Shown here piece after piece: positions 37,712 to 46,202 of a DNA stretch of 57,527 nucleotides; positions within the stretch are counted from its first letter, which is position 1; each line of letters begins with the position of its first letter. The position numbers were made by a program, and so were the translations under genes. Location of the stretch: positions 1 to 57,527 of IMG/VR virus record IMGVR_UViG_3300022752_000080. One strand, 5' to 3'. The stretch comes from a virus. The notes under the pieces are model-generated. The model searched no databases and had not been told where the DNA came from. It saw only the letters and a list, made by a program, of their open reading frames with translations.

Positions 37712-37719
37712 TATAAATA
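37712..37719 (+). promoter_or_regulatory. T4-type late promoter TATAAATA for the fibre-protease operon
   Basis: Exact late core on the plus strand, 32 nt before ATG 37752. Divergent from the psbA promoter, so the 153-bp gap separates early-type leftward and late rightward transcription. Confidence 0.75.
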
Positions 37720-37751: not shown

Positions 37752-39872
37752 ATGGCAAATAGATACCCATTAATTGCCAACGCTGTTACAAGACAATTAG
37801 AAGAAGTTAAAATAGGTGATAATTTAAATCTTACACAAACTGGAATTTTTGATGGAACCAGCACAGGATTATCTGGTTATATTTTAACTTCAACTGGTTC
37901 AACTGTATCATGGCAGGCACCATTATCAACAGAACAAGTCCAAGATATTATTGGAGACATGGTTTCTGTAAATACAGAGACTAATATCTCAGTAACTTAC
38001 GATGACTCTAATGGAAAATTAAATTTTTCTGTTCCAATAGCAACGACAACAATCGCTGGAGCAGTAAAACCAGATGGTTCAACACTAAGTATAGCTCCAG
38101 ATGGAACTCTCACTGTAATTGGGGGAGGTGGCAGCAACGTAACAAACTTAGATAGTCTATCTGATGTTCAAATCGGTGGTGTAATCACTGGTCAAACTCT
38201 ACGTTACAATGGCACACAGTTTGTAAACGTAAATCTGTCTTATAATGATTTGTCAAACAGACCAGCATTATCTACAGTAGCGACATCTGGTTCTTACAAC
38301 GATCTAACATTCAAACCTTTTATTCCATCTCTTATCAATGACCTCAGCGATGTAGAAGGAACTCCATCAGTAGGTCAAGTTTTAAAATGGAACGGTACTG
38401 TATGGGCTCCCGCAGCAGACTTAACAGGTGGTGGCGGTGGTGGCGGTGGCATCACCTTATCAGATCTTTCGGTAACAACAGGAACCGCGGCTGGCGGTGG
38501 TTCATTGTCATATGACAACAATAATGGCACATTCACGTTCACCCCACCAAATCTTTCTGTTTATTTGACAAGTGAAACAAATGCCGATTGGAATGCTACA
38601 ACTGGTGTTGCTCAAATTTTAAACAAACCAACACTTGCTGCTGTAGCAACATCTGGTTCATACAATGATCTTTCAAATACACCAACAATCCCAGCAGCAC
38701 AAGTTCCATCGGATTGGACAGCAACGACAGGTGTTACACGCATCTTAAATAAACCAACTCTTGCTACTGTAGCAACATCTGGTTCATATAATGATTTAAC
38801 GAATAGACCAAGTTTAGCAACCGTAGCAACTAGCGGTGAATACGCTGACTTAGCAAACAGACCAAGCTTAGCATCCGTTGCTATCTCAGCATCATATAAT
38901 GATCTCGTAGATCAACCTGTTATTCCCGCAGCACAAGTTGCTTCTGATTGGAATGCCACTACTGGCATATCAAGAATCTTAAACAAACCAACACTATCAA
39001 CCGTTGCCACAACAGGAAATTATTTTGATCTAGCAAATCGCCCAACGCTATCTACTGTATCGGCAACTGGTTCATACAATGATCTATTAAACAGACCAAC
39101 ATTATCAACTGTTGCTATCACTGGTTCTTATAATGATCTGACAAATAGACCAACATTAGTTACTGCTCTCAGTGCTCTAACAGATGTTACACTAACATCC
39201 CCAATATCAAATCAAACAATTCGCTACAATGGAACACGTTGGGTAAACGTAACCGACAACTTCATTGGAAGAGATGGAGTATCTGTATCAACCGCAACTG
39301 CTTCTGGCGGTGGAAGTTTATCTTACAATAATACAAATGGTGTTTTCACTTTCACTCCACCTAACTTAAGTAGTTACCTCACTGGTATCGGAAATCTTTC
39401 TATTGATGCTTTATCAGACGTTGCTATTGGTACACCACAAGTTGGGCAAACTCTAAAATGGAACGGTAGTAATTGGTCTCCAGCAGACTCTGCTGGCGGA
39501 AGATCAACCGCATTTGCTTCTACTTCTTCAATAGCGAATGGAGCAGCAGAAAATGTAACGATAGTTGGATTCAAATCCTATGCTTTATTAAAGATTCAAA
39601 CTTCGACAGCAGCATGGGTAACACTTTATTCAGATACTGGCAGTAGATTATCTGATTCTTCGCGTTTAGAAAATACAGATCCCGCACCAGGAGCAGGCAT
39701 TATCGCTGAAGTTATTCATACCGCAGCACAAACAACAATCATAACACCAGGAACAATCGGATGGAATAATGACGCTGTTCCATCAACAAACATCTATGCT
39801 AAAGTTGTGAACAAGAGTGGATCCGCCGCAGCAATTACAGTAACACTAACAGTTCTACAATTAGAAACCTAA
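37752..39872 (+). CDS. Tail-fibre-like virion protein with short tandem repeats
   Basis: 706 residues. N-terminus MANRYPLIANAVTRQLEEVK is a common attachment region of cyanophage fibre-like proteins. Residues ~160-460 contain about nine diverged repeats of the form A-x-S-G-SYNDLxNRPTL-S-T-V, with WNATTG(V/I)xxILNKPTL spacers. Two matching blocks (ITLSDLSVTTGTAAGGGSLS... and a later copy with VSTATASGGGSLSY) frame the repeats, and the end (from FASTSSIANGAAENVTI) looks like a compact beta head domain. Likely recognises the host surface or the adjoining protein. Followed 1 nt later by the protease gene. Confidence 0.8.
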   Translation: MANRYPLIANAVTRQLEEVKIGDNLNLTQTGIFDGTSTGLSGYILTSTGSTVSWQAPLSTEQVQDIIGDMVSVNTETNISVTYDDSNGKLNFSVPIATTTIAGAVKPDGSTLSIAPDGTLTVIGGGGSNVTNLDSLSDVQIGGVITGQTLRYNGTQFVNVNLSYNDLSNRPALSTVATSGSYNDLTFKPFIPSLINDLSDVEGTPSVGQVLKWNGTVWAPAADLTGGGGGGGGITLSDLSVTTGTAAGGGSLSYDNNNGTFTFTPPNLSVYLTSETNADWNATTGVAQILNKPTLAAVATSGSYNDLSNTPTIPAAQVPSDWTATTGVTRILNKPTLATVATSGSYNDLTNRPSLATVATSGEYADLANRPSLASVAISASYNDLVDQPVIPAAQVASDWNATTGISRILNKPTLSTVATTGNYFDLANRPTLSTVSATGSYNDLLNRPTLSTVAITGSYNDLTNRPTLVTALSALTDVTLTSPISNQTIRYNGTRWVNVTDNFIGRDGVSVSTATASGGGSLSYNNTNGVFTFTPPNLSSYLTGIGNLSIDALSDVAIGTPQVGQTLKWNGSNWSPADSAGGRSTAFASTSSIANGAAENVTIVGFKSYALLKIQTSTAAWVTLYSDTGSRLSDSSRLENTDPAPGAGIIAEVIHTAAQTTIITPGTIGWNNDAVPSTNIYAKVVNKSGSAAAITVTLTVLQLET

Positions 39873-39873
39873 T

Positions 39874-42800
39874 ATGAACTTAGAAGATATTCTTTCAGGA
39901 AGAGAATCAAAAGAAAAAAATTTAAATACCGAAATTATTTCTTGTTACACAAAAGAACAAGATAACGGTTGTGGGTTGAGAGAATATGTCGTTACATTAC
40001 ATAACTTTGAAGACTTAGATAATTTTTATGATGAAATGCAAAGTGATAATGGAGATGATTATATTCCAGATAGGTCCGTAGAACGAACAAATAAAAGACC
40101 TTTAAGTAGAAATACTCATTATATATTAACAAAAGAAGAAGCAGAAAAATTAAAAGAAGATCCAAGAGTATGGGATGTAGATCTCACAATGGAAGAGAAA
40201 GGAATTGTAGCAGTCCCTCTGGGATCAACATCAATAAACAATGGAGTGTTCGCAAGAAAGTCTGCGGGTTTTTTAAACACTGATATAAACTGGGGATTAC
40301 TAGCACACTCAAATCCTACAGCAGTTTCGATATTAGATCAAGCTGGAACAGACTTTTTAAATAGTTTAGGGCAAGCAAAGTATTCTACATGGGGAAGTGA
40401 CAGAACAGGAAACGCAACTGCTTCAACTAAAATACCTTTTAATGGAGAAAATGTTGATGTTGTTATTGTTGATGATGAAATACCTGTAAATCATCCCGAA
40501 TTCGCAGTAAATTCTGATGGCACTGGTGGTAGCAGAGTAAATGAAATCAACTGGTGGAGTTTATACAGATCAGTTGTTCAGAGTATTGACAACGATGTAG
40601 TAGACGCATCTGTTCCATCAACGTATAATTATGGCAACTATGGTGACCACGGAACTCATGTTGCTGGTATATGTGCTGGCAACAGGCTGGGGTGGGCAAG
40701 AAAAGCAAACATCTATAGTTTATATGCTTATGATACCACAAAAGTTCCTCCATCATTAATGTATGATTTGCTAAGAGCATTTCATTTAAACAAACCAGTT
40801 AATGGTACAACTGGAAGAAGAAATCCAACTATAACGAATCATAGTTACGGTTATGTTACACTACTTCCCATCACTCAAATAACGCAAGTTAGATATAGAG
40901 GATCAAATATAAACGTTTCTTTCACAAATAATCAATCAGATTTAAATATTTTAAGAGGAACGTATGGTCTTAGTGGAGGATTGTTTACTACTTTTATCTA
41001 CAACAACTACCCAACAACCTCATCACAATGGTGCGTTCAACTACCTATTAGAGGAGGAATAGCACAACAAGCAGATATTGAAGATGCGATATCAAATGGC
41101 ATTGTTTTCGTATCTGCTGCTGGAAATTACGGTGATACCAGCGTGAGTTCTACACACCCAGATTATAATAATTCGTTAGTTTATAATTACCAAAGTCAAA
41201 ATAGCACCCAAGTCTATACTGGATTTATAGATTTTTATAAGAGAGGAACAGATCCCGCCGCTGTTCCAGCAGGAATAACCGTAGGAAATATAGATTCAGT
41301 TGCTGCTCTAAAAATGAGCACATCATCTTCAGACACAGAACAAGTTTGGATAGAATTTAAAGTCAACAGTTCATCTCACGGCAACACATGTGATGTTTGG
41401 GCGGCTGGAACAAACATCCTATCCTCAGTATATACCTCACAAACACTGAAAGATCCAAGGAACAATTCATTCTCATTGAATGTGTTGAGTGGAACAAGCA
41501 TGGCATCACCACAAGTAGCTGGTATGATTGCTTGTCTAGCAGAAAGATATCCAAGATTTAAACAATCAGACTTTTTGAGCTTGTTAAGATACTATGGTTA
41601 CACAGGACCAAATTATAATTATTCAAGAACGTTTCCTGGTTTTTATCACAAACATTATGTCACAAATACAGGATCTACTTCATATGAATTTACATCAAAC
41701 GCAGATAGATTGTTTAGCAGGAATGGCAGCAACCAAAACTTCGATATAAGAATTGGCGAGATCGTGGAGTTTTCAATCAACACTCCTGGTCAACCATTTT
41801 GGATCAAGACTTTACAAATTACTGGAACTGGTAACGCGGTCACAACTGGCATCACAAACAACGGAGCAACGTCAGGTAGTATCATTTGGGATACTACTAA
41901 CGTTGCTCCTGGTACTTATTACTATATTTCTCAGAACTCTTCTATCATGACAGGAACTATCACGTTGAAATATTCTCAACTTGATAGAGCTTACACTGCT
42001 GTTGATGCCAGAACACAACCTTACGTTTTATTCCCAACTACACTGAGAAAAACAACTGGGTATATATCCTCAGATGTAGCAGAATCTCCTAGACCAGCAA
42101 GCGGATTAACTTTTCCGAGAAAAAGAATTTGGCAAACTGGAACTGTTGGTGGACAATCTTCTTCCGTATCCACAATACAAACATATAGTATTACACCTTC
42201 CACTACTACTATTAGTGAAGGATCTACAGTGACTTTTAATGTTACAACAAATAACGTACCAAATGGCACTACACTATATTGGACTACCGTTTCAACAGGT
42301 GGAAATCTGAACTCAGATGATTTTATTGATTTGCGTGTTGATAGTTCTTTTTTAATTAATAATGGAAACGCCACGATATCTAGAACATTATTCAATGATA
42401 CTTTGACTGAAGGAGTAGAATCTTTTTATCTAGAAATAAGAACAAATTCAATTACTGGACCAGTAGTTGCTACTAGTCCTAGTATATCAATCAATGATAC
42501 CTCCATAACACCAACACCAACTTATAACATATCACAAGATAGAACATCTGTCAATGAAGGATCTTCAATTGTATTTACACTCACAACAACAAATGTACCA
42601 AATGGCACTACATTGTATTGGACAATAGGAGGAAATGTATCAAATACAGATTTCACAGATTTTCTTTCTAGTTCATCGTTTCTAACCACAAACAACTCAA
42701 CAACAATAACAAGAACTTTAAGAAACGATATCACCACTGAAGGAGCAGAAATATTTAATTTACAAATAAGAACAGGTTCTATTTCTGGACCTGTTGTTGC

Positions 42801-43836
42801 AACAAGTTCCACCATAACTGTCAATGATACTTCCACTTCCCCAACATACAATATATCCCCATCAACTACTTTCGTTAACGAAGGATCTTCAGTATTCTTC
42901 ACCATAACAACAACTAACGTGCCCGATGGTACAACATTATCATGGAGAATTGCTGCTATTTCTGGAAATATAAATTCAAATGATTTTACCAGTGGAGTGT
43001 CAAGTGGCACTCTGGGTATTAGTAGTAATACAGGTAGTGTAACAATATCAGTTGGAAACGATTTATCTACCGAAGGAAATGAATCATTTGTTTTAGAAAT
43101 TCTTTCTAATGGTGTCGTAGTTGCTACAAGTTCAACCATAACAATTAATGACACTTCACTAACGCCAACACCAGCACCGACCGTAACATTATCAGCTTCT
43201 CCATCTACAATTACCAGAAATAATCCAGAAGCAGTAAGTAGTTCAGTATTATCGTGGAATTCTACAAATGCTACTGATGTAATTTCATCAAACTTCGGGG
43301 CAACTTCGGTTACTGGAAGTACAACAGTTAGTCCATTCAGTACAACAAATTATTCAATTTCGGTTTCTGGTCCTGGTGGAACGGCAAACTCAAATACAAC
43401 AGTAAACGTCAATACTTGCGTGGTTCCATCTGGCACTTCGACATATGGATCTGGTTTCTCTGGTTATCTATGGTATGGAAATGGAGAAAAAGTGGTAGCA
43501 CCAAACGGAAGTTCCTTGTTTATAAATTCAATCAATTCTTTATATGGTTCTGTAACGTCACCAATCACTACTGCTGGTGGGGTTGTTACAACATACACTC
43601 AAGTGGCTAATGTTATTATTAATCATTACACTTCTGTTTTAAGTAGATATCCAGAAAGTTTAGGATTTGATTATTGGTTTTATGATTTTCTAAATTTCCC
43701 TGGATACACAAGTTTTAATAGTCTCATAATTAGCATAACAACTTCATACAATCAATCTGGAGGAGAAAGAGATCTCAGAGCATCCAAAGGAGGATTGATA
43801 GGAAACTATGATAGTTGTAATAATAGAAGAGTTTAA
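39874..43836 (+). CDS. Subtilisin-fold (S8) protease with Calx-beta repeats, probable virion protein
   Basis: 1,320 residues. An I9-like prodomain region (~35-110: REYVVTLHNFEDLDNFYDEM) leads to a subtilase domain with all three catalytic residues in their usual contexts: Asp200 (VDVVIVDDEI), His259 (GDHGTHVAGICAG) and Ser542 (SGTSMASPQVAGM). A beta-domain follows, then three Calx-beta-like repeats beginning at ~770 (EGSTVTFNVTTNNVPNGTTL and relatives), a PKD/Ig-like segment (SASPSTITRNNPE) and a DUF4214-like end (YTSVLSRYPESLGFDYWFYD). No signal peptide is seen, fitting a virion-borne rather than secreted enzyme. Shares a late promoter with the fibre gene. Confidence 0.85.
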   Translation: MNLEDILSGRESKEKNLNTEIISCYTKEQDNGCGLREYVVTLHNFEDLDNFYDEMQSDNGDDYIPDRSVERTNKRPLSRNTHYILTKEEAEKLKEDPRVWDVDLTMEEKGIVAVPLGSTSINNGVFARKSAGFLNTDINWGLLAHSNPTAVSILDQAGTDFLNSLGQAKYSTWGSDRTGNATASTKIPFNGENVDVVIVDDEIPVNHPEFAVNSDGTGGSRVNEINWWSLYRSVVQSIDNDVVDASVPSTYNYGNYGDHGTHVAGICAGNRLGWARKANIYSLYAYDTTKVPPSLMYDLLRAFHLNKPVNGTTGRRNPTITNHSYGYVTLLPITQITQVRYRGSNINVSFTNNQSDLNILRGTYGLSGGLFTTFIYNNYPTTSSQWCVQLPIRGGIAQQADIEDAISNGIVFVSAAGNYGDTSVSSTHPDYNNSLVYNYQSQNSTQVYTGFIDFYKRGTDPAAVPAGITVGNIDSVAALKMSTSSSDTEQVWIEFKVNSSSHGNTCDVWAAGTNILSSVYTSQTLKDPRNNSFSLNVLSGTSMASPQVAGMIACLAERYPRFKQSDFLSLLRYYGYTGPNYNYSRTFPGFYHKHYVTNTGSTSYEFTSNADRLFSRNGSNQNFDIRIGEIVEFSINTPGQPFWIKTLQITGTGNAVTTGITNNGATSGSIIWDTTNVAPGTYYYISQNSSIMTGTITLKYSQLDRAYTAVDARTQPYVLFPTTLRKTTGYISSDVAESPRPASGLTFPRKRIWQTGTVGGQSSSVSTIQTYSITPSTTTISEGSTVTFNVTTNNVPNGTTLYWTTVSTGGNLNSDDFIDLRVDSSFLINNGNATISRTLFNDTLTEGVESFYLEIRTNSITGPVVATSPSISINDTSITPTPTYNISQDRTSVNEGSSIVFTLTTTNVPNGTTLYWTIGGNVSNTDFTDFLSSSSFLTTNNSTTITRTLRNDITTEGAEIFNLQIRTGSISGPVVATSSTITVNDTSTSPTYNISPSTTFVNEGSSVFFTITTTNVPDGTTLSWRIAAISGNINSNDFTSGVSSGTLGISSNTGSVTISVGNDLSTEGNESFVLEILSNGVVVATSSTITINDTSLTPTPAPTVTLSASPSTITRNNPEAVSSSVLSWNSTNATDVISSNFGATSVTGSTTVSPFSTTNYSISVSGPGGTANSNTTVNVNTCVVPSGTSTYGSGFSGYLWYGNGEKVVAPNGSSLFINSINSLYGSVTSPITTAGGVVTTYTQVANVIINHYTSVLSRYPESLGFDYWFYDFLNFPGYTSFNSLIISITTSYNQSGGERDLRASKGGLIGNYDSCNNRRV

Positions 43837-44432
43837 AACATCACATTAAATGCAATAGATATTTTTTCTTCTTCAGATTCTCTTCTAGGATTTCCATGTA
43901 ATAAATTACTGTTCCAAATCATTAAAGTTCCTGAAATACAACTATATGTTGCACAATCACTACTATAATTATTTTTATTCTCCGACAATAAAGTAGTACT
44001 AATTAATCGTTGTGCGTTATAAAACAAAATTTTATCATCTTCAGAACATTGAACATAATAAACTCCAGATAAAATACTGCCAGCATGTGTATGGGGAAAT
44101 AAAAATCCTCCCGCCTGAGAAGTATTACACCACATTTGAATCTGAAGTATTTTATCGTTAACTTCGTATCCCATCTTGTTTAAGTAAATCAAAGAATGGT
44201 AATTAATAAATTGTTTGAGAGCAGAAAATGGATATTCTTCTAATGTTTCAAAGGAAGTATGTGTAGAATTTACATAGAAAACATCCGTTTTTAAAGAATA
44301 TTTTTCAACTTCTTGTTTTACAGAAATTTTCAGATCATTAATTAAAAAATTACAACAATTTTTCACCATATAGATAGTAGTTGGAAATAACTCTTCTATA
44401 GTATAATTGACGTTTACATATGTATCAAGCAT
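43833..44432 (-). CDS. 2OG-Fe(II) oxygenase, family like PF13759
   Basis: 199 residues. FPHTHAGSILSGVYYVQ (metal-binding His with the usual GS.LSGVYYV), and GTLMIWNSNLLHGNPRRE (distal His and 2-oxoglutarate Arg) are the hallmarks of this cyanophage-abundant dioxygenase group. The substrate is unknown; protein or small-molecule hydroxylation is possible. Converges with the protease gene (4-nt overlap at TTAA). Confidence 0.85.
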   Translation of the reverse strand: MLDTYVNVNYTIEELFPTTIYMVKNCCNFLINDLKISVKQEVEKYSLKTDVFYVNSTHTSFETLEEYPFSALKQFINYHSLIYLNKMGYEVNDKILQIQMWCNTSQAGGFLFPHTHAGSILSGVYYVQCSEDDKILFYNAQRLISTTLLSENKNNYSSDCATYSCISGTLMIWNSNLLHGNPRRESEEEKISIAFNVMF

Positions 44433-45894: not shown

Positions 45895-45988
45895 CCCCCA
45901 GTCAGGCTCGCCACCTGCCCTTTGACCAGAGGCAGGAAACTGGGCGGGAGTAACCCCATCCGCACCACCAATTCTTTTAGGAAATTGG
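45884..45988 (-). ncRNA. Structured RNA region with competing hairpins
   Basis: Three consecutive inverted repeats on the minus-strand transcript: CCAATT/AATTGG (45968-45988); CCCAGT/ACTGGG (45897-45944) enclosing CCTGCC/GGCAGG; and GGGGGT/ACCCCC (45884-45899) followed by TTTCCTTT. The last two share three Gs (45897-45899), so they cannot form at the same time, as in attenuators. The region is much more GC-rich than its surroundings and has no ORF. Function inferred only. Confidence 0.45.
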
Positions 45989-45992
45989 AAAC

Positions 45993-46202
45993 CTACTTTG
46001 TCTCGGAAACAAAGTTGTTGATGACTTCTGCTTGTTGAAGAACATCTTCCAGTGATGGATATTTTTCAGCAAAATCTGCCGAGATCAAACCATCTGGATT
46101 TTGTCGCTGTGCTACTTCAAACTCCATGGCGTAGTTATCTTGTAGCATATTATATGCTTGCTTGAAAATTTCAAAGCGAAGCTCGTAAGGTGTTTTGGAC
46201 AT
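45993..46202 (-). CDS. Small hypothetical protein
   Basis: 69 residues: TPYELRFEIFKQAYNMLQDN, EKYPSLEDVLQQAEVINNFV. Helical; AGGAG ribosome binding site 9 nt upstream. Similar small proteins are common in T4-like cyanophages; no function known. Confidence 0.75.
   Translation of the reverse strand: MSKTPYELRFEIFKQAYNMLQDNYAMEFEVAQRQNPDGLISADFAEKYPSLEDVLQQAEVINNFVSETK

Follow-up and report, generated by a model that had tools for sequence, protein, structure and literature searches.

In the DNA of a T4-like cyanophage, the gene of a subtilisin-like protease directly follows a tail-fibre gene, and in its relatives this protease is nearly obligately paired with one and the same C-terminal fibre tip domain. 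The best explanation, to which we give a probability of about 50%, is a catalytically competent subtilase mounted on the fibre tip, which would cut a host surface protein during adsorption. Sequence comparison and structural models together bring out a conserved enzyme signature and a prodomain; they also show that the pairing with the tip is near-obligate and that a second gene family can take the place of the protease behind that tip. The strict pairing and the partner exchange appear to be new, whereas the protease itself is of an already annotated kind. T4-like cyanophages are important killers of marine Synechococcus, yet their adsorption is little understood; the firm link between a protease and a fibre-tip domain would point to a defined adsorption module that acts on a surface protein.

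The window, by which we mean the whole 57.5-kb stretch of the IMG/VR record, is T4-like cyanophage DNA, as judged by its nearest phage records (cyanophages without exception), by the taxonomically assigned relatives of its protease (nearly all Kyanoviridae), and by the nearby psbA and tRNA genes. The matches of a DNA-level phage search were confined to short pieces such as hli and tRNA, and none came from the fibre-protease pair. The tail-fibre gene, an ORF call at 37752..39872 on the + strand, encodes 706 aa with a repetitive stem and a C-terminal tip domain; it matches PHROG_9627 and 9729 (“tail fiber protein”), and its dN/dS against the close relative L013 is 0.086. The protease ORF (39874..43836, + strand, 1320 aa) starts one base past the fibre stop. 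On the other side, a 2OG-Fe(II) oxygenase gene (43833-44432, - strand) is convergent with the protease gene and abuts it, and a similar ORF occupies the same position in L011 and L013. A wcaG RNA (Rfam RF01761, 91.9 bits) was also seen at 45900-45996 (- strand), adjoining the tRNA gene cluster.

The original prediction had both genes transcribed from a late promoter. A candidate T4-type late promoter, TATAAATA (37712..37719, + strand), lies 40 bases 5' of the fibre start codon and is retained at the same site upstream of the fibre in three close relatives (L013, L014, and L027); several other relatives carry xATAAATA 30-36 bases upstream of the fibre, and L005 has none. Across the window, however, the motif as a whole occurs at chance frequency (19 found, 18 expected).

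The window protease and its family

Membership of the window protein in the S8 family is firm. Pfam Peptidase_S8 (PF00082) matches residues 191-566 at an E-value of 1.9e-22 and 80.3 bits (cut-off 21.8), and PHROG_9158 matches at 1.7e-108. The catalytic domain (residues 191-581; 40444..41616, + strand) contains the triad D200 (VDVVIVDDE), H259 (GDHGTHVAG), and S542 (SGTSMASP), exactly as numbered in the original prediction, together with an oxyanion asparagine, N418 (SAAGN). The reading of this ORF as a subtilisin with a full triad is thus confirmed by Pfam, by a check of the residues, and by conservation. In an alignment of isolates and IMG/VR contigs, all four residues are kept in 84 of the 84 distinct homologues, a count in which the Asp lay in one search seed and the His and Ser in none, and in which the Asp position of S-CAM1, the most divergent member, was aligned uncertainly. 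Loss of the triad in homologues had been named beforehand as the result that would speak against an active protease, and no such loss occurred. When the window protease is compared with those of three close relatives, dN/dS comes to 0.10-0.15. In an AlphaFold2 model the prodomain and the greater part of the catalytic domain have a pLDDT of ~90, and confidence is poor past residue 579; a fold search with the catalytic domain gave Z values of about 30 for keratinase, aqualysin, and proteinase K (for keratinase 5wsl, Z 30.9, rmsd 3.0, 273 residues). It is well supported, by alignment and model, that the window encodes an active-site-competent subtilase tied to a fibre. A pseudoenzyme acting as a scaffold is the reading to which we give almost no credence: we found no point in its favour, and it was rejected on the active-site residues of the 84 homologues, with a dN/dS of about 0.10 likewise against it.

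The gene is a member of a widespread Kyanoviridae family that is already annotated as subtilase (P-SSM2 gp297, PHROG_9158). Related proteins are found in 58 phage records, almost entirely of cyanophages and with a few matching accessory domains only, as well as in no fewer than 480 IMG/VR stretches. Several genomes carry prior annotations as subtilisin-like protease or peptidase, and P-SSM2 carries a PF00082 note. A limited literature search on cyanophage subtilases found no study of the family, and such work may exist. The typical member has about 550 aa, and many short ones stop soon past a G-x-x-[FY]-P-R motif. In L048 (4186-8542), two subtilases stand in tandem behind a single fibre-tip gene.

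Ahead of the catalytic domain lies an I9-like prodomain (residues about 35-106; 39976..40191, + strand). The fold predicted for it stood up: residues 36-105 are modelled at a pLDDT of about 90, and pro-subtilisin chains align from residue 34 on, over about 340 residues at Z about 30. A Pfam sequence match to I9 was not obtained, however, when residues 34-109 were searched at E-values up to 5. The prodomain contains an SRNTHY motif that is conserved across the family. The N-terminal sequence, MNLEDILSGRESKEKN, read without a predictor, has no evident signal peptide, which agrees with what was noticed at the outset. In the close relative L014 (6001-9123), a domain of ~300 aa with a nucleophile-elbow-like GHSQG lies between the prodomain and the catalytic domain; Pfam and PDB sequence searches gave it no identity, and with its esterase-like look it is possibly a second hydrolase.

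Behind the catalytic domain, the original prediction had overlooked a cupredoxin-like domain (residues about 597-700; 41662..41973, + strand) and a conserved SGLTFPR motif. The former is modelled with low confidence and was identified by alignment to the C-terminal domain of S-H9-1 and ACG-2014e, itself a weak match to plastocyanin/rusticyanin. Its copper ligands are replaced: the His, Cys, and His of S-H9-1 (GHPFYLKT, CQFHSGM) are Gln, Ser, and Asn in the window (GQPFWIKT, SQNSSIM). Cupredoxin-like domains on probable phage virion proteins are seen both here and in L004 (6663-6998), and the ligands of S-H9-1 look intact. The motif, SGLTFPRKR in the window (residues 736-744; 42079..42105, + strand), is the point shortly past which many short relatives terminate. 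The three Calx-beta-like repeats that had been proposed lay below the cut-off for PF03160 in a whole-protein Pfam search and are supported when residues 760-1169 are searched alone (28.8 bits, cut-off 27), as about three repeats near residues 772-1090 (42187..43128, + strand, for residues about 772-1085). They lie within a 560-aa extension that L011 and L013, the closest relatives at 756 aa each, do not have. The Calx-beta tail is a property of the window phage alone and not of the family. An AGS_C Pfam match above its cut-off at residues 776-812 was dismissed as a repeat/composition match. The DUF4214-like end found no support, with PF13946 reaching 12.4 bits against a cut-off of 23.2 (E 0.18).

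Pairing of the fibre tip with the protease

Within the main branch, BLAST comparisons of isolates often showed the fibres upstream of the protease to be alike in a C-terminal stretch only. This stretch, the tip domain, was defined from a 62-sequence alignment and comprises about 122 aa at the extreme C-terminus of the window fibre (residues 585-706; 39504..39869, + strand). It is modelled by AlphaFold2 as a beta jelly roll with a mean pLDDT of 92, and in 178 of 187 fibre ORFs at most one residue separates its end from the stop codon. It has no match among PDB sequences, and a fold search of solved structures gave generic jelly-roll matches only (best Z 7.5, none specific); Tk-SP subtilisin, through its C-terminal jelly roll, showed a weak likeness (Z 6.6). 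Among predicted viral structures, the proteins that match it closely are cyanophage fibres.

The same gene pair was sought in other phages, as proposed with the original prediction. Eighty viral loci were retrieved with the protease alignment alone, and in every one of the 79 that were new the protease ORF comes directly after the end of a tip domain. In the reverse retrieval, with the tip domain alone as the query, 82 tips had downstream sequence: 78 are followed by an S8 gene, four by one other family, and none by anything else, the first figure being biased upward by a query built from protease-linked fibres. The loci are not fully independent, some contigs being in both sets; the distinct tip-protease pairs numbered 139 overall. 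Isolates that carry the exact pair include S-H38, S-WAM2, and S-CREM1. The fibre stems are variable, with detectable similarity in 934 of 7381 stem pairs, and the tip fibres range from about 150 to 1577 aa. Three prodomain-bearing hits in bacterial/archaeal bins are probably phage contigs, because the tip domain lies upstream in all three.

The pairing has its limits within the family. The proteases of P-SSM2 and S-SCSM1 are preceded by fibres that share a different C-terminal domain, and no tip domain is detectable upstream of the proteases of S-T4 and Sf-CH8. The siphoviruses PSS2, S-CBS2, and S-CRES2 have tip-like domains with different neighbours.

These data bear on the main rival explanation, fibre maturation, in which the protease would cleave the adjoining fibre, for example to release or trim the tip in assembly, and would have no need to stay in the virion. 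The genes are one base apart and co-inherited, the tip domain sits at the extreme C-terminus of the fibre, as do the cleaved C-terminal chaperone domains of other phages, and the arginine immediately N-terminal of the tip domain is nearly invariant. However, the same arginine is found in most fibres with a non-protease partner and is hence not protease-specific, and a homologue, gp144 of S-SCSM1, is tagged as a virion protein. The rival is weakened above all because the same tip serves non-protease partners (S-BM3, Sf-CH1b, S-SCSM1, and AG-345-F15), with no S8 relative among the matches listed for Sf-CH1b. We regard maturation as rather unlikely.

Alternative partners and the proposed place of the protease on the virion

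In the four phages just named, a non-S8 family starts 1-4 bases past the stop of the tip fibre. Its proteins have 608-929 aa; most have a start of the GNTGW type and finish near PCPYYLPDDF, and those members that were scanned with Pfam showed no enzyme domain. Genes of this family stand behind the same tip domain at L015:5371-7197, L016:6374-8671, L021:5379-7349, L004:1572-3875, and L017:6365-9154. Their product, at present annotated as hypothetical or virion protein, is a candidate cyanophage tip adhesin. Some genomes hold both kinds of cargo: S-H9-1, AG-345-P14, and L037 have two tip fibres each, one per partner kind. A comparison of the subtilase with the alternative partner by hhalign, looking for a common docking domain, gave only a 21-column cupredoxin-like piece.

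A second rival explanation is an assembly factor or tip cap, in which the window protein would mainly fold or cap the fibre (compare the T4 gp38 chaperone) or act as an adhesin, and proteolysis would serve self-maturation only. The absence of a recognised enzyme domain from the alternative family fits this idea, as do the adhesion-type extra domains that differ from member to member, such as the Calx-beta-like repeats of the window, LamG in S-SCSM1, and the cupredoxin-like domain of S-H9-1 and ACG-2014e (the accessory domain in L014 is the GHSQG insert). The four intact active-site residues in all 84 homologues fit continued cutting, even if they might equally be kept for self-processing, and we hold the tip cap to be unlikely.

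For the location of the protease, the most useful record is that of S-SCSM1, in which the tag “virion protein” is attached to both members of two pairs, gp144 (protease) with gp145 (its fibre) and gp141 (tip fibre) with gp140 (its partner). The entire record has 47 such tags by our count, and the paper gives 45 proteins detected by virion mass spectrometry, including NMNAT and a D-Ala-D-Ala carboxypeptidase; the available part of its mass-spectrometry text does not single out the protease (PMC9602691). The tag appears to record detection, because the NMNAT and carboxypeptidase reported in the paper both carry it. It applies to the window by analogy only, because the S-SCSM1 protease branch has a different upstream fibre end. 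In S-CREM1, where the exact pair is present, just 14 virion proteins were detected, and the protease goes unnamed in the text. The virion-borne protease of the original prediction is therefore backed indirectly, by the tags on a divergent S8 protein and its fibre and by the mass spectrometry of that phage. A free enzyme, whose targets would be host or phage proteins of the cytoplasm or which would act after lysis, would suit the lack of an evident signal peptide and the ordinary operon, with psbA and a 2OG-Fe(II) oxygenase as neighbours, but it leaves both the strict fibre-tip pairing and the S-SCSM1 tag unexplained, and we consider it very improbable.

In the preferred reading, that of a tip-mounted subtilase, the fibre would form a trimer ending in the jelly-roll tip domain, and the protease would be translated right after the fibre from the same message, dock onto the fibre tip, and travel with the virion. 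The prodomain may assist folding and prevent activity in the cytoplasm before assembly, and the tip-borne protease would then cut a host surface protein in adsorption. Trimming of the host surface, maturation of the fibre, and self-cleavage had all been suggested earlier; among these three roles, the cutting of a host surface protein, a presumed substrate, fits best, because the same tip domain also precedes a non-protease family. Of the earlier interpretation, the coupling of an active-site-competent subtilase to a fibre has stood, the virion location has gained indirect backing, and the DUF4214 end has found no support.

More tentatively, and with odds that we put a little short of even, this may be a general cyanophage tip cartridge, in which a jelly-roll tip carries an exchangeable next-gene cargo, either a protease or a non-enzyme binder. 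If so, the cyanobacterial surface would be breached by proteolysis instead of, or besides, polysaccharide cleavage. The pairing rule can also be used at the sequence level to pick out fibre tips and candidate receptor-binding proteins in cyanophage genomes, in which a large share of such genes is currently called hypothetical.

Comparison with known systems

The closest known proteins are the cyanophage S8 subtilases (P-SSM2 gp297 / T4-GC 292, PHROG_9158), which share the prodomain, the catalytic core, and the placement behind a fibre-type gene; the “subtilisin-like serine protease” of S-H38, S-H9-1, and S-WAM2 is of the same kind. They are mostly about 550 aa, whereas the window protein has 1320 aa with Calx-beta-like repeats, and the P-SSM2 and S-SCSM1 subtilases have an upstream fibre end other than the window's tip domain. 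The secreted pro-subtilisins (subtilisin E, Tk-subtilisin) and mature aqualysin/keratinase share an I9-type prodomain and the S8 fold (Z about 30); in contrast to the secreted enzymes, the window protease is phage-encoded and fibre-linked, with no evident signal peptide.

Phage depolymerase tailspikes are likewise virion enzymes presumed to act on the surface, but they cut polysaccharide, whereas the window enzyme is a protease. A 2018 review of the barrier enzymes of tailed phages does not mention protease or subtilisin (PMC6116005).

In the T-even phages the gp37 fibre gene is followed by gp38, and the arrangement seen here, a fibre with a conserved C-terminal tip and its partner gene directly downstream, resembles that pair. 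T2-type gp38 sits on the gp37 trimer as a tip protein that varies between phages (PMC12892980). The likeness, drawn without a claim of sequence relation, lies in the cyanophage combination of a tip that stays constant, stems that vary, and a next-gene partner that can be exchanged; the partner in the window is a protease, which may be the enzymatic counterpart of the T-even gp38 tip adhesin.
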